Source of the DNA: Neckera pumila
Taxonomy: Eukaryota; Streptophyta; Bryopsida; Hypnales; Neckeraceae
Assembly (NCBI GenBank): GCA_963969595.1
Contig: OZ018410.1
Location: 29,950,913 to 30,014,912 of the forward strand
DNA length: 64,000 nucleotides
Direction of reading: 5' to 3'
Shown here: one piece after another, positions 5,939-63,307 of the stretch
Layout of the letters: the number at the start of each line of letters is the position of its first letter
Numbering within the stretch: position 1 is the stretch's first letter
Program-made: the position numbers and the translations under genes
Notes under the pieces: model-generated
Databases searched by the model: none
Told to the model about the DNA's origin: nothing
The model's input: only the letters and a program-made list of their open reading frames with translations

Positions 5939-5942
5939 TTAA

Positions 5943-6891
5943 TCCCCAAAGGTTTTGACTATGTTTTCACCAAAAACGCTCCCAAAAAAACTGCCATTTC
6001 TAGTACAAGTACCAATTTTTGGACAAAAAAACATTTTTTGGACACATGTAACCATAAGATCTTGTAGTAAACTAATTTAAGAAGATGTGGAAAAAATTTC
6101 AAAAATTCCCGCCATGTAGATCGCAAGCTATTAGCATTTAAAGTGACAAAACTCCACATTTATTGTCCCTGCCAAAAAACGAGCAACTGCACTTCACAAG
6201 GTCACATTTTGTATGAAAAAATGTCTAAAATGGTTGTAATTTTTTGGATTCATTCTTCAGGGTAAGTTGGCTACATGCTTGAAAATTTCATATCAGTTGA
6301 AATTGAACAGTTTATAGGAAAAAAATAGTAAATAGAAAGAAGTAGATAATGATTCAAAATTTTAAATTGTTAACAATTTAGTTATGGAATTGAAAAATTC
6401 CAATCCCCAATGGTTGTAATGTTGTGATCAATCTACACCTTAGGTTTTTATTTCTTTCAAAAATTATTGAAAATTGAGTTAAACAAAGGACTTCAAAGTT
6501 TATTTTAGAGTAGAGATTTCATAACTACCCGCAAACTAACCAAAACTTAAAATTCTCACAAGTTTTGTCTCAAAAATCATGATGGAATGATTCAAAGCTT
6601 TCCTCATGTATATCAATCTAGAGAACCAATTTCAAATTTTTATTTCTCAAAAAAATGATTTTTAAAGAAGTTTTTTTTGTTGTCCGGGCTGCTGCCGAGC
6701 AATGAAAACTACATATTGTACCATAACTTTTTAACATGTAGTCAAAAGTGATGAAAATTATTGGGCCTTACAACCACTCCCCAGGAAAATGTTGTGTGAA
6801 AACTTCAAAGAAAAAAAATAAAATCTCCATTCATAGTGAGCTACCCGAAATTGCTATGTTGCCAAAAAAACATCGTTAGGTCTTTTAGGGG
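5943..6891 (+). mobile_element. TTAA-flanked piggyBac-like element, family 2
   Basis: The element is 949 bp between TTAA at 5939-5942 and TTAA at 6892-6895. The left end is TCCCCAAAGGTTTTGACTA and the right end is TAGGTCTTTTAGGGG. TTAA duplication with CCC/GGG ends is the known piggyBac pattern; Kolobok also uses TTAA and is the main alternative. The interior carries sequences shared by all family-2 copies (AGATCTTGTAGT near the left, TTGCCAAAAAA near the right). No transposase frame is present. Confidence 0.8.
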
Positions 6892-6896
6892 TTAAA

Positions 6897-12419: not shown

Positions 12420-13374
12420 GTAAACGCCCAAACATTTTTTTTGGCAACATAGCGATTTGGGGCAACTCAATAAAAATAGAGTTTATATTCTTTTCTTTGA
12501 AATTTTCACACATGTGCCTAAGGTGAGTAGATTTAAAGCCCAACACTTTTCATAATTTTTAACTACATGATTAAAACGTTATTGAATGATATGCGAGATG
12601 ATATACAATTTTTGTTGCTTGGTGGGCAGTGTGAGCATTTCAAAAAAATTCTTTAAAATTCACTTTTTGAAAAATAAAAATTTGAATTTGACTTTATAGA
12701 TTTATAAAGACGTAGAAATTGGAAAGCTTTTAATCATTCCATTTTGATTAATGAGATGAAACTTATGAAGAGTTTTAGTTTGAGGGTAATTATAGAATCT
12801 CTGCTCTAAAATAAACTTTGAAGTTCTTTATTTAACTCAATATTCAATACATTTGGAAAAAAACAAAAAAAAACATTGGGTGTAGACTGTTTATTACAAT
12901 ATTACAACCATTGGGATTGGCATTTTTCAATTCCATAACTAAATTCTTGACAATTTTGAATTTTGAATCATTATGTACTTCTTTCTACTTATTATTTTTT
13001 TTGTACATATTGTGCAATTCCAAATGATTTGAAAATTTTCAAGCATGTAGCCAACTTGCTTCGAAGAATGAATCCAAAGAGTATCCAACACTTTGGAAAT
13101 TTTTTCCTACAAATGTGACCTTGTGAAGTGCAACTGCCCAATTTTTTACAGGGACAAAAAAGTGATTTTTGTCAATTCAAACGCTAATATCTTGCAACGC
13201 ACATAGTGAAAAAATTTGAAATTTTTTCCACATCTTCTCAAACCAGTGTACTACAAGATCCTACATTTACATATGTTCAAAAATGTTTTTTTTCCTAAAA
13301 TTTAAAACTTGTAACAGAAATGACAGTTTTTTGGAGCATTTTTTGGTGCAAACATAGTCTGATACATTTAGGGG
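12420..13374 (-). mobile_element. piggyBac-like element, family 2
   Basis: The right end is sharp (CATTTAGGGG then TTAA at 13375-13378). The left end is eroded but shows TTTTTTGGCAACATAGCG, the diagnostic subterminal sequence of the other family-2 end. It is almost abutted to the previous element, giving a head-to-tail run from 10 to 14.5 kb. Confidence 0.7.
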
Positions 13375-13566
13375 TTAATAAACCCATCTATTGCCATAAA
13401 AACGGCTCTACAACCTTCCGAAGCTTAATGAAACCATCTGTTGGGATGAAAAACGACTTTGAGGAGAATAAAAGATACGTATATGTAATACTACTACTAA
13501 ACTATCCTAGTACTGAAATATAGACAAATATTTACAGAAATTCAAAAAAGCTTTAAGGAAGGTTAA

Positions 13567-15938: not shown

Positions 15939-16634
15939 TCACTCATCGCACTGCCAAAGAAAGAGGGCATGACTGGCCTGTATGTCAGCATCATGGGGTG
16001 CGAGCGCCACGGCCTTGTTGTAAAGCTCCTCAGCAGCATCTAAGTCGCGCAGCGCCTTCCATGTGAACACTGCGAACTCGGACACGAGTCGCGCATCGTC
16101 GGGAGCAGCCGCAAGAGCGGCATGAAACGCCGATTTCACTGTGCTGTGGTCTTCCTCCACGATCACCTCAGTCTGGCTCGTGTAGCGCATTCGAAACTCC
16201 GCAAGCACATTCGTATACAGAGGCCGGCTACCTCGGGCACTGCACTCAACTAGGTTACCATTCCCAGACTCCGCGAGAAAAGATCGAGGCAACGGCGCAG
16301 CATGCTGCTCAATTGTCTCAGCCGTCTGGAGAGCTTCTGGTGCAGGGAGTCGCTTCTCCAACTCGATAGGCTGCTCCAAAACTTCAACAGCTTGTCTGGT
16401 CGGGAGAGGGCAAACCGACACGGCAGCAGCTTGGCAACGAGCCGGCAAATCGGTGCTCTGTGAAATTCCCGCAGTGTTCTTGGACTTGGAGAACGACGAC
16501 TCTTGATCTTTGAAGAAAGAAGCGTTCGCCTGCGAAATCCTGGAAGCTTCAATTCCACACCACACTCGAGCGCTTGCACCAGAAGCGCTCGCGAGGCGAC
16601 CAAAGCTTGACGCAGTTCTCAACGCCACCGCCAT
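15939..16634 (-). CDS. TPR-like superfamily protein (plant type)
   Basis: Predicted protein of 231 residues. Residues about 1-35 (MAVALRTASSFGRLASASG onward) are rich in Ser, Ala and Arg without acids, like an organelle transit peptide. A low-complexity middle follows. Residues about 163-231 form helical TPR-like units: FHAALAAAPDD, LVSEFAVFTW, DAAEELYNKAVALAPHDADI and ASHALFLWQCDE. The A-P-x-D turns and final FLW motif resemble plant TPR-like proteins of unknown role. I chose the second Met (eight residues in) because the pseudogene at 4684 starts at the matching residue. The stop overlaps a GTGAG donor in both this copy and the pseudogene, so the true C terminus may lie in a further exon. 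It lies in a GC-richer island. TPR repeats usually mediate protein binding; the partner is unknown. Confidence 0.75.
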   Translation of the reverse strand: MAVALRTASSFGRLASASGASARVWCGIEASRISQANASFFKDQESSFSKSKNTAGISQSTDLPARCQAAAVSVCPLPTRQAVEVLEQPIELEKRLPAPEALQTAETIEQHAAPLPRSFLAESGNGNLVECSARGSRPLYTNVLAEFRMRYTSQTEVIVEEDHSTVKSAFHAALAAAPDDARLVSEFAVFTWKALRDLDAAEELYNKAVALAPHDADIQASHALFLWQCDE

Positions 16635-17099
16635 TTCCAACGACAAAGTGCCAATCACCGCTAGAACAAACTAAAGCTTCTCTATCTAATCTCTACAATA
16701 CAGACGGTCTCTCTCCGCCTAAACCTGTGCAACAGATATTTGGCTCAAAAATTTTGTACAAAAATTTGGTAGACGGTACCAACTACTCCACGACTGCTTT
16801 GTTTAAATTGTTGCAAGAAGAGAATTGCACTCCAAACTCACTACCGGACTACGCAATTTGAACACAGAGACAATCGAAAACTCCGCAAGCAAAGGAAACC
16901 TGAACACGACTCTCTGTAAAGTACGAACGGACGGACGGACGCTGCAAGTGGGCTCTCCTTGCAGAGTAGGCTCGAAAACCCGTAGCCGATGCGGCAATGG
17001 CGAAAATCATTCGGGCGCCAGTTGCTTACATGCAACTCACAAAAGTAAGAGATACTTCTGTCTGGGTGGACCTGGGCAATGCAATTTATCTTTGACCCT
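16635..17099 (-). promoter_or_regulatory. upstream region of the TPR gene
   Basis: GC-mixed sequence directly upstream of the minus-strand TPR gene, ending where a TTAA element begins. It should hold the leader and promoter, but I cannot point to a convincing TATA box. The open frames on both strands here overlap one another and look fortuitous. Confidence 0.3.
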
Positions 17100-22401: not shown

Positions 22402-22472
22402 ATAAATTTGATTATTTTCTAGTGCACGAAAGTATGTCACCAAATGTATGCGTAGAAACTGATTTGATTTAA

Positions 22473-23408
22473 CCCATAAAGGTTTTTGACTATGTTTTCA
22501 CCAAAATCGTTCCAAAATCGTAATTTTTAGGAGAAGTACCAAATTTTGAAAAAAAAGGACTTTTGGACACATATAACCATAGGATCTTGTAGTAAACTAG
22601 TTTGAAAAGATGTGGAAAAAATTTCAGAATTTTACACCGTGTAGATTGCAAGATATTAGCGTTTGAATTGACAAAAATGCTTTTTTTGTCCCTGCGAAAA
22701 TCCGGGCAGCTGTACTTCACAAAGTTACACTTATATGAAAAAATGTTCAAAATGATGGTAACTCTTTGGATTCATTCTTTAAAGCAAGTTGGCTACATGC
22801 TTGAAAAATTACAGATCATTTGGTATTGTACAACATATAGGAAAAAAATAGTAAGTAGAAAGAAGCAGAAAATGATTCAAAATACTAAATTGTCAAGAAT
22901 TTTGTTATGGAATAGAAAAATGCAAATCGCAACGGTTGTAATGTTATAATAATCAATATATACCCAGTGTTTGTTTGTTTTTTTCAAAAATATTGAAAAT
23001 TGAGTTAAATAATGGACTTCAAAGTTTATTTTAGAGTAGAGAATCCATAGCCACCCTCAAATTAAGAATCCTCATAACTTTTGTCTTATAGATCCAAATT
23101 GAATGATTCAAAGCTTCCCGTTTATATTTAAATCTAAAGAACTAATTTCAAATTTTTATTTCTTGAAAAAGTGATTTTTCCAGAAATTTTTTGAGCTGCC
23201 CGAACTGCCCAAAGATCAAAGATTACCACATATCATGCAATTAGTTTTTAATTATGCAGTCAAATGTTATGAAAATTGTTGGGCCTTAAAGCTATTCCTT
23301 GGTCACATCTTGTGTAAAAGTTTCAATGAAAAAAAATAAAAATTTCATTTGTGGTGAGCTGTCCAAAATCACTATGTTGCCAAAAAATGGTGTTTGGTCC
23401 TTTAGGGG
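22473..23408 (+). mobile_element. TTAA-flanked piggyBac-like element, family 2
   Basis: A 936-bp element between TTAA at 22469-22472 and 23409-23412. The left end is CCCATAAAGGTTTTTGACTA and the right end is GGTCCTTTAGGGG preceded by TTGCCAAAAAATGG. Same order of internal landmarks as 5943-6891. The open frames here are fortuitous. Confidence 0.85.
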
Positions 23409-23485
23409 TTAAATGAAATGGATCTACACTATTATATCTGTAATTGAACCAAATGAGTATGAATGAGAACCAGATTATTTTTTAA

Positions 23486-31282: not shown

Positions 31283-31663
31283 TTGTACAAATAGGCCTCC
31301 CTTGTGCGCACACTTGTAAACAATAGAAATGGTGTTGACTTCATTTTCTTTTTGAAATTTATTAGTAGGAAGTTCTCCCAAATGGCCAAATTTTTGGTTT
31401 TTTAATAACCGTTTTTCCTATATTTTACAAATTAAAACATGAAAGTATGTATTTTGGCTTCAATTCTATGTCTAAGAATTTGTCCCAAAAAATACATATT
31501 TTGATGTTTTAATTTGTAAAAATAGGAAAAACAATTATTAAAACAACCAAAAAAATTGACCATTTGGAAGGACTTTCTACTAATGAATTTCAAACAAAAA
31601 AATGGGGTCAACACCATTTCTATTGTTTACAAGTGCGCGCACAAGGGAGGCCTATTTGTACAA
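31283..31663. mobile_element. palindromic MITE with arms of about 165 bp
   Basis: The left end TTGTACAAATAGGCCTCCCT is inverted at the right as AGGGAGGCCTATTTGTACAA, and the match continues through AACAATAGAAATGGTGTTGAC. The arms stay paired inward to about 31440 and 31500. A transcript through it would fold into a long hairpin. No coding frame and no clear target duplication. Confidence 0.9.
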
Positions 31664-32899: not shown

Positions 32900-34050
32900 A
32901 AGAGGCAGTAACTAACTATGCTAGTCTTGGCTAACTAACTCAATATTTCTAATGAAGCTACAGAGGGGGGAGTCGAGGGACTGCATCGTATTTCCAACAC
33001 TCCCCCTCAGTCCGCTACTCCTCTGTAATTCCTGATCTGATGTTGAACTTTACTGTGATTGAACTTCAATGGTCATGGTGATGTGTGTTGAAATTTAAGA
33101 GGAACTTTTGTTTAAATCTTCCTTGCTTGACGCTTTGAATTCCTCCTGTGGAATTATCAGTTGAAGCCGACTTCTCATCTCCTGGAATTGGACTCTGCTT
33201 AGGGGTTGCATAAAAACATGGGTTGTCTGTCGTTGAGATTGGACGAACTCCAGGCAGATTCTTCCCTTCCCTTGCAAATGTGATCGCGTATCAGGTGACA
33301 CGTTTTCTTGATGTGCTTAGTACGAGCTTGGAAGACAGGATTCTTCGCCATTTTCAAGCAGCTTTGGTTATTGCAAAATATAGTAATGGGTCGTGATAGC
33401 GGCAAATGAATCTCTTCAAGCAAATTCCGTATCCACATAGCCTCTTTTGTTGCTTCTGCAAGGGCTCTGTATTCAGCCTCAGAGCTAGACTGCACCACTT
33501 CATTTTGCAGTTTGCTTTTCCAGGAGATTGGTGACATTCCGATATTCATTACATAACCTGAGGTAGACTTTCTTTCGTCCAGATCACGAAGATAATCACT
33601 GTCCGAGTACCCATGCGGTATTATGTCTCCCCCTCTTGGATAGTGAATAGCGAGGTGAGAGGTTTAAGTAACAAAAATTATGCAGGACAGCGTGAAGACA
33701 GGCTTCCCTGGGAGCAGAAGTGAACCGAGTGACAATGCCAACCGCAAATGCAACATCAAGCCGTGTATTTGTTACGTGAAGAAGCTTTCCAACTCCAGTG
33801 CAGTAGTATATGATGCCATGATCTTCAAGTAACGGTGAATCCATGTGGAGAGAAAGGCTGTTGTATACTGTAGCTTCCACTGGAGTAGGTGATAGAAGAC
33901 GGTCAGTGAGATCCATGTCTTCAAGGCATTTTTGAATGTATCGGTGATGCGACATCATGATGCCGCAGAAGCTAGAGAGAAAATCAACGCCCAATTATAA
34001 TGATAAGTTACCCAAAACTGTCATGGCAAATTCGTCCATTTAAGTTTTGG
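32900..34050 (-). mobile_element. Ty1/copia retrotransposon relic (pol 3' end and LTR start)
   Basis: From high to low coordinate: the last part of reverse transcriptase (FAMTVLGNLS, GVDFLSS, IMMSHHRYIQKCLEDM), the connection (GKLLHVTNTRLDVAFAVGIV, FTSAPREA), a frame change near 33655, then RNase H (GYSDSDYLRDLDERKSTSGY, SSSEAEYRALAEATKEAMWI, NNQSCLKMAKNPVF, RTKHI). A purine tract (GAGGGGGAG) then leads into an LTR-like start TGTTGGAAATACG, read down from 32999. Gag, integrase and most of reverse transcriptase are missing, and the far end of the LTR is not found. The element cannot move on its own. Confidence 0.85.
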
Positions 34051-35920: not shown

Positions 35921-36802
35921 TTAAAAAATTACTTTTACTTTGATTTTGGTGGCGTTCTTGCTACTGGGAGTGGAACCGGGAGTGGAACTAGAAGTGGATG
36001 AAAATTGGGCCAAGGCCACAAGGCCACACTAGTTTTTAATGAAGTAAAGAAGACATGTAATTTCAAATGTGAAAATAAATAAATTTCTTCCATACATATC
36101 TAGTTGCAAAATGGTAGCAAATTGAGTGATGGGTAGTGAGGCCCATGTGGTCATAGGTCAGAGGTCTGTCCTTTAACCCCTAAAGGACCAAACGGTGTTT
36201 TTTGGCAACATAGTGAATTTGCGCAGCTGACTACGAATGGAATTTTTTTTTTCTTTGAAAATTTCACACAATGTGTACCCAAGGAGTGGCTTTCAAGCCC
36301 AACAATTTTAAAAACTTTTGACAACATGGTTAACAAGTTATTACATGATATGTCAATTTCAATGGTCGGCGAGCAACTCAATTTTTTTTTGAAAAATCAC
36401 TTTTAAAAAAAATAAAAATTTGAAATTGGTTTTCTAGATTTATATATACTTGGAAAGGTCTGAATTATTCCATTTTTATTTATGAGATGAGAATTATGAG
36501 GTGTTCTAGTTTGCGGGTAGGTATAGATTTCCTACTTTAACCCCTAAAAGACCAAACACTGTTTTTTGGCAACATAGCAAATTTGGGCAGCTTATTACGA
36601 ACGGAGTTTTTATTTTTTTTCTTTGAAAATTTCAGAAAAACTTGTGCCCGAGCTATAGCTTTAAGGTCCAACAATTTTCATAACTTTTGATGACACGGTT
36701 AAAAAGTTATGAAAATTGTTGGACCTTAAAGCTATACCTCGGGCAAATGTTTTGTGAAATTTTCAAAGAACAAAAACAAAAACTCTGTTAGTAGTGAGTT
36801 GC

Positions 36803-42102: not shown

Positions 42103-42106
42103 TTAA

Positions 42107-43029
42107 CCCCTGAAGGACTGAGGCCCTTTTTCTGCTAAAAAAGACTCAAAACTGCCATTTCTATAGCAAAAAGTAAAAAAAATTGAAAAAATGTTTGTTT
42201 TCTACATCTCACCGTAGGATCTTATACCTAACTAGTATGAGAGTGTGTGGAGAAAATTTCAGAATTTTTGACCGCACAGATTGCAAGATATCTGCGTTTA
42301 AAGTGGGAAAAACAAGCTTTTCAGCACATTGTGGGATTAGATTTTGTGACTTTGAACATTTTTAACTTTATTTTTTTGCACTACAGAGTTTTGAGCTTTT
42401 AATGTTTATACTAGAGAATTGAGTTGAGAATCTAACGCAAATAAAAAAGTTAAAAAAAAGTTAATTTTCATTATTAAAAAAATTGTTAAGTAGAAGTAGG
42501 TACGAGATAGAAGGAAAATCTAAAATATTCATATATTTTAGTTGGGATTAAAATGCACTAATCCCAATGGTGAGATTGTTCTAGCAAGGAAACTAAACCA
42601 TGCAAAAAAAAAAAAATTTGAAAAATTTGAAAAATTGCATTCAGAAATGAATCCTACAAGTTATTTTTTTCAAAAAGATGCTCTAATTGCCCGAAAAACA
42701 AGAATGTCCATAACTTTCTTATACAAAGTCCAAATGAAATGAATCAAAGCTTTCTAGATAGACAAAAATATAATCTATGAGAATAAAAATACTCAAAAAA
42801 AAAAAAAAAAATGCAAGTATTTTTTGCTGCCCGCCATCCCATGTTTTGAGCTTATTTGGTCATAACTTTTGTTCCAGGCACCAATTGTGAAAAAAAATTA
42901 TTTTCCCATGAAGATAATCAGCTTTTCTACCTCCAAAGTTTTTTTCAAAAAATCAGAAGAAAATTTCAGCCCGTAGGTACTTGCCCGAAAACACATTTGT
43001 CCCCCGAAGGGACAATGGTCCTTTAGGGG
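42107..43029 (+). mobile_element. TTAA-flanked piggyBac-like element, family 1 (best preserved)
   Basis: A 923-bp element between TTAA at 42103-42106 and 43030-43033. The left end is CCCCTGAAGGACTGAGGCCC and the right end is GGTCCTTTAGGGG after TTTGTCCCCCGAAGGGACAA. Very close to the copies at 23486 and 62390, so these three were probably active more recently. Confidence 0.9.
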
Positions 43030-43033
43030 TTAA

Positions 43034-46000: not shown

Positions 46001-47599
46001 TGTATAAGAGCTCTGACTGGAACTTAAACGGCGAACATGTCAGTTGGTGAATATCAGCATGCTTTGGAAGTTATGGGTTGCAAGTTCTGTACTTGCAGAC
46101 CCTGGAAGCCAGGCTTTTGGTTTTCCAGAAGTTCCTGGTGTCTGCAATGGACAGTAACCCTGATTCGGAGATACAGGCAGCTACAGCAGGGTGTCCAATG
46201 TCTATTTCAAAAGCCGAAAGAACGTCAATATCCTAAAATTGGCGATATTTCATAAGTCCAAAATTGTGGCATGTATCTTCACAAGGTCAAGCTCAATCTA
46301 AAACGGTGAGTTTATAATCTTGAATAAAAACTAGGACGGGTGTAGATTTTGGGTGCGGCCTGAACCACGCCACCGTAATGGAACATGACATTAATGACAT
46401 TTGTAAATAGATACTCCGTACTAGTTTATTCAAACATTTCACACAAACAGCAGAGAATGTTTCTCATACAGACTTGACTGTAAACTACAATTCAAAGGAT
46501 ATTTCAAAAGTTTCAACAAAGAAATCCCTCCAATCTGCGCTTCCAGGAGCTATTTACAATTTGTAAAAAATACATTCAATTATAATTTTACTCATGAACG
46601 GCAGGAGTACAATCGCTCGATTCTAATGAACTTTATTCTGAAGTAACAGAAAACATTCAAAAGGGACAAACTAATCAAGCCTAGGGTAATGAAGCACAAC
46701 ACCTAAATGGTTATTTAGCATGAATGCATAATTCGCCTGCAACAGAACCAAGCTGCCCTCATCACAGCACAAATGCTAACATAACACCACAAATGCTAAC
46801 GCCACAACTTTAATCTCGGTGTTTAACAGCATGTCCTTGTAAACAATAGTTCAGACCATACTAAAACCATTTAGGTGTAACGCGTCTCCGATTGCGGAAC
46901 ACCAAATCGAACACGTTACTTCCAAAAGCAGAAGAACATCTATCGGTTACCGATCCCGGCGTGTACTGATGGCAATCCTCGATCCCCTACTGCTGCCAGC
47001 AAGTACTTGTTCGTATATTCAAAGAGTATCTGAAAATGACAAATTGCATGGACAGCAAAGAATTGTAAAATTCTGCGACCCTGAAGCCAGCCGTCGACGC
47101 AGAACAACTCGAGTACTGTAGGTCTGCAATGACAACATTCTATAAGTACCGTCTGAATCTCACCAGCAACTCGTGACAGTGGAGAGAATCGATGGTTTCT
47201 GAAATGCAAGAAGTGAAAACGACAGAACCGTCAGGAAAACGATACATACGTGCATACACCAAATTGCACAAATCAAACATTTAAAGCTAGGAACACTTAC
47301 CAGATATATGAATTCACGCAATCGGTTAACTGATCAGACGTTCACGGAAACCAGCATGCAATTGGGCTAGCAATTCGACCAGAATTCGTCAGTTCGATGA
47401 GCACCTGGTGAAACGTACGTGATATCCACAAGTCGGGGTTCGAAGTGCATCAGCCAGCGGTTTACCAGTAACTGCAGTCCTCCAATAATCTACACGCTGC
47501 CTGACTGTATTCCAATGGCAGAAAATAAAATCCTCCGATCACTGTCATGAGCAAGGGCTCGACGTCTTCGCAAATGATCCACACCTCTTCGATCCGCGG
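43034..47599. other. long stretch without a recognised gene
   Basis: AT-rich to about 43.8 kb, then mixed. Overlapping frames on both strands at 43833-44522 (one minus-strand frame of 137 codons) show no domain I can name. 45192-45527 has a 111-codon plus-strand frame without a domain. Composition rises towards 47 kb. Part of 46.9-47.6 kb may be the 3' end of the MIR166 primary transcript. Confidence 0.35.
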
Positions 47600-47613
47600 T
47601 CCATGATATGCAC

Positions 47614-47704
47614 CTGAGCTGAGGGGAATGAAGCCTGGTCCGAGGCTCATGTGCCAGCGATCGAGCGCCACAAGCATCAGACCATGCGGCATTCCTCACA
47701 GCCA
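47614..47704 (-). ncRNA. MIR166: MIR166 hairpin 1 (canonical)
   Basis: On the minus strand positions 47643-47623 give exactly the canonical 21-nt miR166 (UCGGACCAGG at the 5' end, UUCAUUCCCC at the 3' end) on the 3' arm. The 5' arm at 47674-47695 (GGAATGCCGCATGGTC) is the passenger strand. Aligning the two 29-nt arms by hand, about 23 positions pair, counting one G-U. Stem bases continue as GCTG against CAGC. The loop is about 30 nt. The arm position is the one known for miR166. Confidence 0.93.
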
Positions 47705-47781
47705 AGGTGCACAGTTGTACTTATCATCGAGGCTCCATCTGGCTTGGACTCTCACGATCGTATTTCTGCATCATGGAAGAC

Positions 47782-47874
47782 TGTCAAGGGGAATGAAGCC
47801 TGGTCCGAAGCACTTGTAAAATGGCTTGGGACCAAATATAGAGTGCTTTGGACCAAACACCATTTCCCGCGACA
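47782..47874 (-). ncRNA. MIR166: MIR166 hairpin 2 (canonical)
   Basis: Minus-strand 47808-47788 is again the exact canonical 21-nt miR166. The passenger strand GGAAATGGTGTTTGGTCC lies at 47845-47867. The lower stem pairs TTGTC with GACAG. The loop differs in sequence from the other units, as expected of independent precursors that keep only the duplex. Confidence 0.92.
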
Positions 47875-47945
47875 ATTTCCCATACTCCGAAATCACCACC
47901 ATCTTCTCACATCCCCTGCGGCACCTTCATGACAGTAATTATGCA

Positions 47946-48032
47946 ACTTTGCCAAAGGGAATGAAGCCTGGTCCGGAGCATCCGTTGGGGCATACAACTG
48001 CTTCGTTCCAGTCGTCATTCCACTCGGCAAAG
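47946..48032 (-). ncRNA. MIR166: MIR166 hairpin 3 (5' variant)
   Basis: Minus-strand 47976-47956 matches miR166 except position 1 (C for U) and position 21 (U for C). The passenger strand GGAATGACGACTGGAACG is at 48000-48021. The lower stem ACTTTGCC pairs with GGCAAAGT. If processing shifted by one base the product would begin with U (UCCGGACC). Confidence 0.88.
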
Positions 48033-48121
48033 TCGCATTTCGAAGCCTGAAGCTTGAGACTACCTTCACTTGAATGGAGCAGACAACGATGCCGGTTACT
48101 CACTAATGATGATCAAAGCAA

Positions 48122-48212
48122 GTTTGCCGAAAGGAATGCAGCCTGATCCGAAGGTTGATTTCGCCCGGGTAAAACAGCTTCGTCCCAGACACCAAACCCG
48201 CGGCAAAATCCC
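48122..48212 (-). ncRNA. MIR166: MIR166 hairpin 4 (diverged)
   Basis: Minus-strand 48151-48131 differs from miR166 at position 6 (U), 13 (G) and 20-21 (UU). The passenger side GGTTTGGTGTCTGGGACG is at 48177-48198. The lower stem TTTGCCG pairs with CGGCAAA. Pairing inside the duplex is weaker than in the other units, so processing is less certain. Confidence 0.72.
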
Positions 48213-48301
48213 ATGATGACCATCGCTGATCGACAAATTTTGCTACGCCGAAGTCGCCGGTTGCTCGTTTAGGCGACGAATCTATATGACGACCATGCAA
48301 C

Positions 48302-48388
48302 TTAGTCGAGGGGAATGAAGCCTGGTCCGGAGCTCCAGTTCGACTAGCAAAGCTAGCTTCGGCCCAGGCGTCATTCCGCTCGGCAAAG
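48302..48388 (-). ncRNA. MIR166: MIR166 hairpin 5 (5' variant)
   Basis: Minus-strand 48330-48310 matches miR166 except C for U at position 1. The passenger strand GGAATGACGCCTGGGCCG is at 48356-48377. The upstream arm starts GCGACTTTGCCGAG, identical to unit 3, so units 3 and 5 share the most recent common origin. Confidence 0.9.
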
Positions 48389-48584
48389 TCGCAATCCACT
48401 TTCGCCGCTAGCTGAAGTCGTGTTCTCGACCAGAAGATCATCACCGCAACCTCCCCATCACGACCTCAACAATAGCATTCTCAAACATATCGCGCACTAC
48501 TATTCAATGACTGTAGCAAGCATTCAGATCAATCGTGGTCGGTAACCTAGAGGCCTGAACGTACTGTTTCACCATGCACGCAAC

Positions 48585-48680
48585 TCTTCCGAGGAGTGGC
48601 TGCCTGGTCATATAGAGCAGGCTGGTGGAGACCGGCCCCTGTGTCGGTCCACACAGCATTCCACCCGAGCAGGTCACACG
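48585..48680 (-). ncRNA. diverged sixth miR166-like hairpin
   Basis: The minus strand at 48611-48591 reads GACCAGGC followed by AGCCACTCCTC, sharing the miR166 core but with an extra base and changes in the 3' half. The passenger side GTGGAATGCTGTGTGGACCG (near 48641-48665) resembles a standard miR166 passenger strand. It may be a decayed unit or one that makes a different small RNA. Confidence 0.5.
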
Positions 48681-48699
48681 CATTACAATGTAACGACCG

Positions 48700-50200
48700 A
48701 TCGCTAGTGCTACCAGAAACTCCCGTCTGAGGAATTACGAACAGAGAACGGTGATTACTCCGCCGAGGACATTCGGAATCAGTCAAGCCACGGCAATTGG
48801 AGACTAGCGTCGAAGACGGTTTTCGTGTCTACTAACTAACGCTGTGTTTGCAAGGACTGCCGAAATGACCACGAGCCGTGATCCCGGTTCCGTACTCGCA
48901 GTAATGATCGCCGCCTCGATATTCTAACGATAAAAGTCTCAATCAGTGCGTGCGGCGGATATCACAAGGCAGGGACTGGAAGTTAAGCTAGCACCGGTCG
49001 ATGGGAACTAGGGACCGATCGATCTCGCGACAACAGGCGCGATAACCTACAGGCTTGGGATTGTATCCCTTCCTACAAGAATATGCAAATCAGAGAGCGT
49101 CCAGCGCCGAGACGGACGTTGTCGAGGCGGACTGGCGCGTGAGGTTGATCGCGAGATCACCAATTGCAGCCTGTCTCACGGTTTCAACTCTACTCAACCG
49201 TCCCCTGGCCGACCGCTAGCTCCAGGCGATACACCCCATCTCCCGAGGCAGCCCTCGCCGGTGGAAGGACTGTACGAGCGGCGCGGGCTCCAGAGCCACG
49301 CCACCCAAACGTCATGAACGTCTTCCAAGGAGAAGACCACACACGCTGGAAGCGCTTGCTTGGTGTAGTACGACACTAACCGAACCTCGAAAATCCAAAA
49401 AAAGACATATAACAGAAATAAACAAAAGAAGAGCTCCGGCGCCACCTAGCTAGTACGTGACCGCGAGAATTCCAACTAGGAGATACTCCAGAGTTTCAAC
49501 AAACGACTGACCCATCCGAACTCCAAACAAACCTACCAATCGGATAACCCTTGACCGAGCGGGCTTCTCAATGCAGACCAGAATTGCGATCGAACTGGAA
49601 GTATTCCTAGCTAGCTACTTTCCCAGTTCATCCCTCCATGCATGCAAACCACCAAGCTAGCGCATGGTCAAATTGCGACTTCGACTAGCTGCACCCAAAG
49701 GTGCGACGACAGAAGATGTGTATGCTAACTAAAACAGAACCCCCCGCCCCCCGTTGCAGCAGGTAAGCTAGCGATACGTGGATATCTGGGTCCCGATAGA
49801 AGCACAACCACTGGGCGGAGACGACGACGAACGACAGTTGTAGAAACACGATCGCGAGGAACCTGAAGCTAGAGGCAGTGCGGGAAGTCAAGTGTGAGGA
49901 AGGGACGAGCGAGGGGCAAATAAATAGTCGCGAACTCGCGATGAGAGCCAAGGCGTGGCCTTCGCAGAGACGGATCCAGCAAGTTCTTTGCAGCCCAGTG
50001 ACCGCTTGCTTCCCGTCACTGACGGCCCCGGCGCTGTCCCGAGTGTTGCTCCGTCCGCCCTTGCGCCTGCCTCTGGCTGGCTGGCTGTCCCCTGGAGCTG
50101 AGCCCCTGGGCCCCTGGTTCCAGCTACTATTTTAGTTTTCCCGTTTTCCGGGGGGAGGTTCTGCTAACGGAATTGCAGTGGGGCTCTAGTGGAGTGGCCA
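48700..50200. other. GC-richer island upstream of the MIR166 cluster
   Basis: No protein gene is supported. Several frames are open because stops are rare at this composition. One minus-strand frame (49685-49951) has a hydrophobic stretch FRFLAIVFLQLSFVVVSAQ like a signal peptide, but there is no other support. The stretch probably includes leader, introns and promoter of the primary miRNA. Confidence 0.4.
49918..49927 (-). promoter_or_regulatory. TATA-like element for the pri-miR166 transcript
   Basis: On the minus strand the site reads CTATTTATTT, with a pyrimidine-rich stretch beginning about 25-35 bases downstream (CGTCCCTTCCTCACACTTG), as at many plant start sites. It is the best TATA match upstream of the cluster. 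Position and strand fit; function is inferred. Confidence 0.35.
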
Positions 50201-50516
50201 TGACGACGGTCGCGGCTCTCCCTTGCAGTCTCGCTCAACGGACGCGCTTCGGAATATCCGCTCGGGCCTTGCCCAATTTCACATCAACATTCAACAGCCC
50301 GCGTATTTGTGCCTGATTATATTCTGTTGCTGCAAGGATCCATGAGGTACTCGGATAGCAGGATTCTGCAGATGCTTCAAATAGGAGTCTTCCTTTGAAA
50401 TATATGTTTCTCCATGAAAAAAAGAAATTGGGAAAAAAATCCCTAAAATTCCAACATCTCTTTTTCAGAACTCTTTTTAGTATACTGTGATAGTTGGGTA
50501 TGGTATATGATCAACA
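50201..50516. other. no gene seen
   Basis: Transition from the GC-richer island to AT-rich DNA. No feature recognised. Confidence 0.35.
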
Positions 50517-50620
50517 CACTAGTAGAAAAAACGTATTTGAGCACTATGGAATAGTGGTGCCAAAGGCCTATATAGAACCTTGCGCATATAGGCCTTAACA
50601 CCATGCTCTCATACTGATCA
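50517..50620 (+). mobile_element. CACTA element terminus
   Basis: CACTAGTAGAAAAAACG followed by subterminal inverted motifs (GGCCTATAT against ATATAGGCC; GTGGTG against CACCA), typical of CACTA ends. The opposite terminus was not found, so this is probably a truncated element of unknown length. Confidence 0.55.
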
Positions 50621-50919
50621 TTCCTTGGCTCAAAATTTTCATTTCTATTACTAAAAACCCAATAGAGGATCCATATCATCGGATCCACAGTAAATGTCAC
50701 ATTTAGGTACTTCTACCTTACCTTGACAATGAGAAGATAGATGTGTAGAAAGATACAAAATCCTTGCTGACATGGCAAAGCACAATCACATCCTTGCTTG
50801 TCATGTTGAATGTAGGGACAAATGTAGTGATATTAGTGTAATAATGGTCCCTTTGCACTTGGGCTATTATAAAAAAAATTATCACTTAAAGGATGTTGCG
50901 GCTGCTTTTGCGGCGGATG

Positions 50920-50966
50920 AATTCTGTATGAAAATGGAAGGTCTTCTTCCATTTTCATACAGAATT
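50920..50966. repeat. perfect 21-bp hairpin with 5-nt loop
   Basis: The arms at 50920-50940 and 50946-50966 are perfect complements (core TTCTGTATGAAAATGGAAG), separated by GTCTT. No mismatch, so it is young. Too short for a usual plant pre-miRNA. Confidence 0.95.
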
Positions 50967-50969
50967 TGC

Positions 50970-52008
50970 AATGAGAGCTTTTGGATAGGAGAAAAGCAAC
51001 AAACCATAAGCTTGTACATATCATATGCAGGAGATTAGCCAATGCAAACCTCGCCCCTAAGACCGTGACTACTTTATAGAACCACTAGCTGTCCACTTTG
51101 CCCATAGCCTTACCTAGTTTTAGGGCGTTTTTAGGGATGCATAAACAACTGTTGTTACATTAAGATACTCCTACCTCAAGTCATTGTTTACTGGCACTCT
51201 ATCTTCCACTGCATTTGGAGTGTGCATGAACCTTGCAAAAATAGTTGTTCCTCTATGTTGCTTTACACGCTGTCTACACTATCCAGCCATAGTAGTAGTA
51301 TAAGTTAACTCAGGTTGATGCCATATGTTGAAAACCTATGTTTGGAGATCACAAGAGTCTCGGTCTTCTCTAGAGCATGGAACGGCACTAGCTTTGAGTA
51401 GCTTTGACGGTGCCTAGAGTAGAAAAAGTTTAGTGGGTACTACATATTGTGGAAATTGATGAGGCATTGGGTTTATTAAGTTATGCTTAGAGACAGCCAA
51501 ATCTAAGTTAAGTTAGAATTGGTGACTTTGTATTTGTGCCACTTCATGAGGCATGGCCCATATGTGTTCCTGTTCTTCTGTCATGCTGTCCGTATTTGCA
51601 CTGGTTGGTATTAATTTTGTGTCAAAACATTTCATAGGCCGTAATCTCCGGCTACATTAATGTGATTTCTCCAATATTTATTTTTCTATTAACTATGACG
51701 TCAGGGATGACGGTGAACTGTTCAAATCCCATATTTAGTGATGTGATTGAGCTCAACCCTAAAAGAACGTGGGCCCTCATGATCAAGGTAGTCTCCAAAA
51801 TATTCCAATTATTGAACTAGTAGGTGTATTCTTTGTTTCTACAGTGAACAATGCAGTCATCCACTCGACCTTGTAGGTTTGCAATGTCCTTCCAAGGTTA
51901 AATGGATGCTAGATTCCATTCTACAAGGACTTCAAACCTCAAACCGCATCTTTTTTATTTTCAATTCAAGGAAGTGCCAACTTAGGTAAATGATTGAGAC
52001 AAATACAC
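50970..52008. other. anonymous sequence, no gene seen
   Basis: Nothing recognised; frames are short. Confidence 0.35.
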
Positions 52009-59098: not shown

Positions 59099-59989
59099 AC
59101 TGTACTGTACACCCCCCTGCAAGAAAGGTTGACGCCCCCCTTTTGCACCCTTCAGCTTTTTTGACATTACTGTGAACATAATTGACATTTCTTGTTTTCG
59201 TCAATCAGCATTTGTGTCTAACCCAATCTCCCTCAAGTATACCAAATTTTTAATTTCAAAAAACCAAAACTCCATTTTTGGTGAATTTTTAAAATTTTTT
59301 TTCATAGTTTTACATGAAAATTCATAGAAAAACATTAATGATGAATTTTTTTAATTTAATTGCGGAGATACGTAGGAAACATCCAAACGCACATCTTTCC
59401 TTCAACAAGCATCTCCAAAAAAGTTTCAGAATTATCGTAGCAAAAGTTACAATGGAGGCATGAATAGTGCCCAAAATTTTGAAAATTCATATCTCTTTAT
59501 TATAATTAGATTTTGATAAAGTAATTGTACCATCATGCTCAAATGTGTAAAATCAGTTACAATGTGAGGGAAAAAAGCAAAATCTAATTACAATAAAGAG
59601 ATATGAATTTTCAAAATTTTGAGCACTATTCATGCCTCCATTGTAACTTCTGCCACAATAATTGTGAAACTTTTTGGAGATGTTTGTTGAAGGAAAGATG
59701 TGCGTTTGGATGTTTCCTACGTATCTCCGAAATTAAATTTAAAAAATTCATCATTAATATTTTTCTATGAATTTTCATGTAAAACTGTGAAAAAAAATTA
59801 TGAAAATTCATCAAAAATGGAGTTTCGGTTTTTTGAAATTGAAAGTTTGGTATACTTGAGGGAGATTGGGTTAGATACAAATGCTGATTGACGAAAACAA
59901 GAAATGTCAATTATGTTCAAATTAATGTCAAAAAAGCTTAAGGGTGCAAAAGGGGGGCGTCAACCTTTCTTGTAGGTGTGTGTACAGTC
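59099..59989. mobile_element. fold-back element with arms over 400 bp
   Basis: The left end (ACTGTACTGTACACCCCCC, AAGAAAGGTTGACGCCCCCC, TTTGCACCCTT) is inverted at the right end (AAGGGTGCAAAAGGGGGGCG, CAACCTTTCTT, TGTACAGTCA). The arms pair through TCTTTCCTTCAACAA and ATCTCTTTATTATAATTAGA to a centre near 59545. No coding frame. Long inverted repeats occur in some Mutator-like and Foldback elements; without a clear duplication I do not assign one. Confidence 0.9.
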
Positions 59990-62385: not shown

Positions 62386-62389
62386 ATAA

Positions 62390-63303
62390 CCCCTAAAGGA
62401 CCAAGGCATTTTTTCTCCCAAAAAACTCTCAAAACTGCAATTTCTAGAGCAAAGAGTAAAAAAAATTGAAAATTGTTTTTTTTGCACATCTAACCGTAGG
62501 ATCTTATACATAACTAGTATGAGAATGTGTGGAAAAAATTTCAGAAATTTTTGACTGCACAGATTGCGAGATATCTGCGTTTGAAGTGAAAAAAACAAGT
62601 TTTTCAGCACATTGCGGGACTAGATTTTTTGACTTTGAACATTTTTAACTTCATTTTTTTGCACTATAGCGTTTTGAGCTTTAAATCTTTATAGTGGAGA
62701 ATTGAGTTGAGAGTCTAGGAAAAAAATAAAATTCAAAAGAACTTAATTTTCATTCTCAAAAAAATTGTTAAGTAGAAGTAGGTACAAGATAGAAGGAAAA
62801 TCTAAAGTACTAATATCTTTTAGATGGAATTAAAATGCTTTTAATCCCAATGGTGAGATTAATCTAGCACAAATCCATGTGGAACTATTTTTTTTGAAAA
62901 ACTGTTAAAATTGCATTTGAAAATGAATCCTACTAGTTATTTTTTTCAAGAAGATGCTCTAAGTGCCCGAAAAACAAGATTGTCCATAGCTTTCTCATAA
63001 AAATCCAAATGAAATGAATCAAAGCTTTCCAAAGAGACAAAAATATAATCTATATGAAAAATGAAAAGTAAAAACTTAAATTTTTTGCAAAATTTTTCTA
63101 TTGCCCCCTCTCCCCTGTTTTGAGCTTATTTGGGCATAACTTTTGTTCCCGGGCAGCGATTGAAAAAAAAATGATATTCCCACAAAGCTTATCAGTTTTT
63201 CTATCTCCAAAAAAAGTTTCAGAAAATCATGGCAAAAATTCAGCCCGTAGGTACCTACCCAAAATCCCATTTGTCCCCCGAAGGGACAATGGTCTTCTAG
63301 GGG
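62390..63303 (+). mobile_element. piggyBac-like element, family 1, with ATAA flanks
   Basis: A 914-bp element with the left end CCCCTAAAGGACCAAGGC and the right end CAATGGTCTTCTAGGGG. Both flanks read ATAA (62386-62389 and 63304-63307) instead of TTAA. Interior landmarks are intact and close to the copy at 42107. Confidence 0.85.
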
Positions 63304-63307
63304 ATAA

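Follow-up and report, generated by a model that had tools for sequence, protein, structure and literature searches.

Known clusters of MIR166 genes

The closest described systems are pairs of MIR166 hairpins. Soybean carries four two-copy MIR166 clusters (MIR166e/q, v/o, x/b and y/n) whose precursors lie 90-158 nt apart and whose ESTs contain both members (PMC5286673). The maize MIR166k/m hairpins, 142 nt apart, are a RACE-confirmed pair, and the same source speaks of two-member miR166 clusters ‘including moss’ (PMC2773440). PMC5869255 reports a MIR166k-166h cluster from rice and also notes clustering in Medicago, soybean and P. patens, a review lists polycistronic MIR166 pairs in crops (PMC11276106), and star sharing has been published for MIR166h/j of Brachypodium (PMC4053937). 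As far as these texts go (PMC5286673, PMC5869255, PMC2773440, PMC11276106), they agree with the first-pass annotation of the present locus, which took known MIR166 loci to consist mostly of one or two hairpins.

A comparison of Arabidopsis, rice and poplar that took in all MIR families gives homologous clusters as generally comprising two to three copies, with miR166 among the clustered families and eight copies of rice miR395 as the largest case (PMC2812943). In P. patens, 25% of miRNAs are given as polycistronic (review PMC9291395, citing Axtell 2007), and the number of MIR166 genes differs between papers, being 13 (PMC5286673) or six. Control of HD-ZIP III genes by miR166 is reported in land plants, moss and liverworts (sources including PMC9291395).

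A tandem MIR166 array on the minus strand

The locus described here is very probably a plant MIR166 gene, in which tandemly duplicated hairpins on the minus strand are carried by one primary transcript. Five miR166-like 21-mers are present in the window (the whole 64-kb stretch of DNA that was analysed), all on the minus strand. Two are exact (u1 and u2) and the others differ from miR166 by one (u5), two (u3) and four (u4) mismatches. Start-to-start distances between neighbouring 21-mers are 165, 168, 175 and 179 bp, going from u1 to u5. The presence of five reverse complements of miR166, their spacing, and the claim that two of them encode the canonical 21-mer held as first annotated.

A search of the window allowing up to three mismatches returned five matches, namely u1, u2, u3 and u5 on the minus strand and one on the plus strand (48359-48379) that is the complement of the u5 passenger arm. 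The same search of 100 dinucleotide shuffles of the window returned none. The more divergent u4 21-mer is in register with those of the other four units.

When the Rfam MIR166 model was run at a lax threshold, the five minus-strand units obtained the scores listed in Table 1, with E-values of about 5e-11 to 5e-4 (4.7e-11 to 5.4e-4). On the plus strand, four units were matched at 21.6-41.2 bits, and u4 was matched on the minus strand alone. At gathering thresholds nothing is listed for the window, the cut-off of RF00075 being 60 bits and the best unit reaching 52.5. Our assignment to the MIR166 family is based on the mature sequence and the hairpin, not on the Rfam gathering cut-off. With all units on the minus strand and 165-179 bp apart, the array has the arrangement of a homologous MIR cluster (one strand, members less than 3 kb apart).

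Table 1. Units and linkers of the MIR166 array. Bounds of u1-u5 come from a covariance model built on u1-u5, whose scores for these units are high by construction; Rfam scores are those at the lax threshold.
Feature	Position	Strand	Details
u1, intact MIR166 hairpin	47606..47714	minus	Rfam 52.5 bits; fold z -6.3; 4/21 mature positions unpaired
u1 mature, exact canonical 21-mer, 3' arm	47623-47643	minus	predicted star ~47675-47695
u2, intact MIR166 hairpin	47771..47885	minus	Rfam 49.9 bits; fold z -7.2; 3/21 mature positions unpaired
u2 mature, exact canonical 21-mer	47788-47808	minus	predicted star ~47846-47866
u3, intact MIR166 hairpin	47939..48040	minus	Rfam 40.9 bits; fold z -8.0; 6/21 mature positions unpaired
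u3 mature, CCGGACC type, 2 mismatches	47956-47976	minus	predicted star ~48001-48021
u4, degenerate MIR166 unit	48114..48216	minus	Rfam 28.5 bits; fold z -0.96; 7/21 mature positions unpaired
u4 mature-like, 4 mismatches	48131-48151	minus	star-like ~48178-48198
u5, intact MIR166 hairpin	48293..48396	minus	Rfam 45.3 bits; fold z -6.2; 4/21 mature positions unpaired
u5 mature, CCGGACC type, 1 mismatch	48310-48330	minus	predicted star ~48357-48377
u6, ruined MIR166 unit	48576..48681	minus	both arms recognisable, hairpin lost
Linker u2-u1, 55 nt	47715..47769	minus	
Linker u3-u2, 52 nt	47887..47938	minus	
Linker u4-u3, 73 nt	48041..48113	minus	
Linker u5-u4, 76 nt	48218..48293	minus	

Four intact hairpins

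Folding of the minus strand across the array, proposed as a check by the first-pass annotation, bore out an unusually stable structure. The 831-nt fold reaches -343.6 kcal/mol, whereas shuffled sequences average -283.2 (z -7.3), and none of 20 shuffles was as good. Folded singly, u1, u2, u3 and u5 give z-scores from -6.2 to -8.0 (0/300 shuffles as good for each), with the mature sequence on the 3' arm and a paired star. In 891-nt and 1401-nt contexts, their mature arms pair within their own hairpins with a mean probability of 0.67-0.83. The same arrangement of 3'-arm mature and paired star is lost in u4 when it is folded in context, and in u6, a further unit that we describe below.

The array is therefore better described as four intact MIR166 hairpins and two decaying units, u4 being degenerate and u6 ruined, with the case for u6 the less firm of the two. 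Five hairpins, each with a matching passenger strand, had originally been annotated. Both statements stand for u1, u2, u3 and u5 and are weak for u4, in which 7 of the 21 mature positions are unpaired and the mature arm is drawn into pairing with a linker, and the ruined u6 is an addition.

Decayed units

The 104-nt core of u4 folds no better than many random sequences (54/300 shuffles as good), and for a wider stretch 3/300 shuffles were as good. Its mature arm pairs inside its own hairpin with a mean probability of 0.01-0.03 in the 891-nt and 1401-nt contexts (0.03 in the former). In the 891-nt fold the unit is without a hairpin of its own, and the minimum-energy structure pairs its mature arm with the u3-u2 linker.

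The sixth unit is likely a dead MIR166 copy, a judgement made from sequence on the grounds of arm similarity and position, and not of its covariance-model score. When 12618 overlapping windows from the two strands were ranked by mean score to the arms of the five units, its 5' arm came first and its 3' arm second, a ranking computed after the likeness had been noticed by eye, and places other than u6 rank higher by best single arm score. The two arms are in the correct order and orientation on the minus strand, and a separate repeat search picked out 48641-48678 as the fifth member of the passenger-arm repeat family, at 66%. The hairpin itself is gone (fold z 0.35).

As a unit recognised by the covariance model alone, u6 was rejected. 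Its score of 6.9 bits, equivalent to E 0.74 over 3.5 kb, is not significant, it does not appear in the whole-window listing up to E 10, and unrelated palindromes in the window outscore it with up to 36.9 bits. No convincing unit further out than u6 or u1 was found with this model. Given that u4 is decaying and u6 appears to be dead, we propose that the array turns over through the birth and death of units.

Changes that preserve pairing and the conservation of arms

A stem of 36 base pairs was predicted from the sequence alignment of the five units u1-u5. Seven of these pairs have changed on both sides with pairing kept, against a mean of 2.3 in shuffles, of which none of 500 reaches seven; the other 29 show no two-sided change. 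Among the alignment cells, 87.7% are paired, as against 32-46% when the partners are slid by 1 to 3 columns. The RNAalifold covariation term for the five-unit alignment is slightly unfavourable (+1.12 kcal/mol). We regard the pairing counts as supportive rather than conclusive, because the stem was itself predicted from these five related sequences.

The 3' (mature) arm is more similar than the 5' arm in eight of ten unit pairs, the excess for u3/u4 and u3/u5 amounting to about 2 points or less. Both exceptions, u2/u4 and u4/u5, involve u4. This pattern is consistent with a constrained guide strand encoded on minus, and with a release of u4 from that constraint.

These observations bear on whether the entire array might be a dying, silent relic, with miR166 supplied mainly by other loci. 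Such a view would accommodate the decay of u4 and, less surely, of u6, as well as Rfam scores that all fall under the gathering cut-off. It would also suit the promoter search, in which no TATA box was found close to the array: within 48400-52000 the minus strand has no TATAAA[AT], and a looser TATA site occurs just once in 48400-50600, at 50569. Against it, u1, u2, u3 and u5 fold strongly and have mature sequences that match miR166 exactly or nearly so, the stems carry two-sided changes, and the mature arm is the more similar one in 8/10 pairs, all features that long silence would not preserve. We consider a relic quite unlikely.

Origin of the array

Tandem duplication is the obvious origin of the array, judging from its sequence. 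The first-pass annotation had suggested that this duplication was stepwise, and of that proposal the tandem origin is borne out and the stepwise order is not. Pairwise identity among the hairpins is 67-79%, and the closest pair, u3/u5 (79%), is not adjacent. A tree of the units has bootstrap values of 59 and 35 only. None of the 15 pairs formed by the four linkers and two flanks shows significant similarity, the best being equalled by 32 of 500 shuffles. Duplication of a dimer (u2 with u4, u3 with u5) is plausible by eye and was set aside in view of the bootstrap of 35 for u2+u4 and the linkers' lack of significant similarity. By itself, this sequence does not allow the order of the duplication steps to be reconstructed. 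What is supported is the MIR166 identity of the units, their strand, their hairpins and their tandem origin.

Proposed transcription, processing and targets

Because the linkers are only 52-76 nt long, separate promoters are implausible, and a single polycistronic pri-miRNA across the hairpins is strongly suggested. This transcript would run on the minus strand from approximately 48.4-48.7 kb down to 47.6 kb. The contrary arrangement, in which every hairpin is its own transcription unit and the cluster arose by tandem duplication with no joint transcription, would agree with linkers that bear no significant similarity to each other. We judge it very unlikely, since spacers of this size would probably be too short to accommodate both a promoter for Pol II and a terminator, and since the soybean and maize MIR166 pairs are reported to be single transcripts (PMC5286673, PMC2773440).

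A functional transcript from the plus strand, with antisense hairpins, has some apparent signal in its favour, in that the covariance model finds plus-strand matches of 28 to 68 bits (50-68 bits for u1, u2, u3 and u5) and u5 folds better on that strand (-57.6 vs -52.9 on minus), but these are features to be expected because miR166 duplexes are nearly palindromic, and the reading can hardly be entertained when minus outscores plus in 5/5 units with the covariance model (itself built on the minus strand) and in Rfam for the four units matched on both strands, with u4 on minus alone, when minus folds better in 4/5 units, and when the plus-strand 3' arms of u1, u2, u3 and u5 carry 3-6 mismatches to miR166.

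From the single minus-strand transcript, Dicer-like cutting of u5, u3, u2 and u1 would release miR166 from each 3' arm. The product of u1 and of u2 would be the canonical 21-mer. In the mature sequences of u3 and u5, C replaces the first U, and these units would give the CCGGACC type, although the cut may lie one base upstream. The 21-mer in that position, TCCGGACCAGGCTTCATTCCC, is identical in both units and would restore a 5' U. The 5' end of the u3/u5 product would be either UCCGGACC or the CCGGACC start.

MiR166 is loaded into AGO1, and the products of the array would be expected to silence HD-ZIP III mRNAs. Scored for complementarity to a putative HD-ZIP III site, u1/u2 incur a penalty of 3.0, u3 and u5 one of 2.5, their shifted 21-mer one of 1.5 and u4 one of 6.0. 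Organ polarity and meristem fate are set by the level of miR166 via HD-ZIP III genes. We infer the transcription unit, its processing, its targets and a raised dose of miR166. On these terms, an array in which four hairpins are sound and two are decaying would record a change of dose through the gain and loss of tandem units, and it would permit a test of whether hairpin number sets miR166 output.

Pairing between units was also considered. The u5 star arm pairs with the u3 mature arm at -57.3, compared with -49.8 for u3's own star arm, and with the u4 mature arm at -48.5, compared with -33.3 for u4's own. Given this better pairing, u5 could in principle serve u4, in the manner published for Brachypodium MIR166h/j. 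Against such sharing, the fold of the u5-u4 stretch loses 16 kcal/mol, going from -116.0 to -99.6, when the 3' arm of u5 is kept single-stranded. A fuller version of our model, with an array of at least six units on one transcript, birth-and-death turnover, two mature types and hairpins able to share star arms, seems to us unlikely as a whole.

The sequence around and upstream of the array has a raised GC content (0.45-0.54 over 47001-51000), and 48001-52000 has the top CpG ratio, 0.89, among sixteen 4-kb windows. This region is perhaps the promoter region of the array. Upstream of the array, at 50920-50966, lies a perfect inverted repeat whose 21-bp arms are 5 nt apart. A bacterial promoter and terminator scan was uninformative for plant DNA.

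Other features of the window

The six-frame pieces of at least 75 aa number 127, and Pfam searches with 70 of them gave only weak TPR matches and identified no target gene. One of the frames concerned is a 243-aa open frame on the minus strand (15942-16670), whose TPR match is weak, at E 4e-4, and under the Pfam cut-off. For 92 of the 105 shorter pieces around the array there was no Pfam match, the 13 omitted pieces including nine over hairpins. Searches of PDB produced four weak matches, all to one ORF, and NCBIfam one match far under its cut-off. Frames on the minus strand at 33202-33994 resemble by eye what we take to be a Copia-type reverse transcriptase/RNase H fragment, and they have no Pfam or NCBIfam match. 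A comparison of one retroelement-like stretch with plasmid records found nothing. The 17-base miR166 core has 16 single matches in prokaryote genome contigs, which we took as chance.

Repeats occur elsewhere in the window. A near-perfect palindrome at 36601-36790 folds into one long hairpin (-107 kcal/mol) and is probably a MITE-like element. Large inverted repeats are present at 59104-59988, 31283-31663 and 2360-2918, with self-reverse-complement identities of 90%, 86% and 79%, respectively. Dispersed repeats of approximately 70-92% identity and up to about 1 kb include 5939-6896, 12421-13378, 22469-23413, 42104-43033 and 62387-63307; among the matches listed, none falls around the array at 47-50.5 kb.

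Comparison with known MIR clusters

In the titles and abstract openings of the literature matches listed, no MIR166 array of at least four hairpins appears, a statement that concerns those matches and makes no claim of absence from print. The two-hairpin MIR166 loci of soybean, maize, rice and Medicago (MIR166c,d) are likewise tandem homologous hairpins at short spacing, for which a single precursor has been shown or proposed. They have two units, whereas the present array has four intact and two decaying ones. Its linkers are 52-76 nt long and the corresponding distances are 90-158 nt (soybean) and 142 nt (maize), a rough comparison only, given that hairpin bounds are drawn differently. Clusters of two MIR166 members are likewise reported for moss (Physcomitrium patens).

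Among other families, the rice MIR395 locus (Osa-MIR395m-s,x, up to eight hairpins in 497 bp; PMC2812943) is likewise a compact array of homologous hairpins. It belongs to a different microRNA family from the MIR166 array, one whose targets function in sulfur metabolism. The array adds no new mechanism: polycistronic MIR166 genes are a known kind, and the present array is a larger and mostly intact one, unusual in copy number only.
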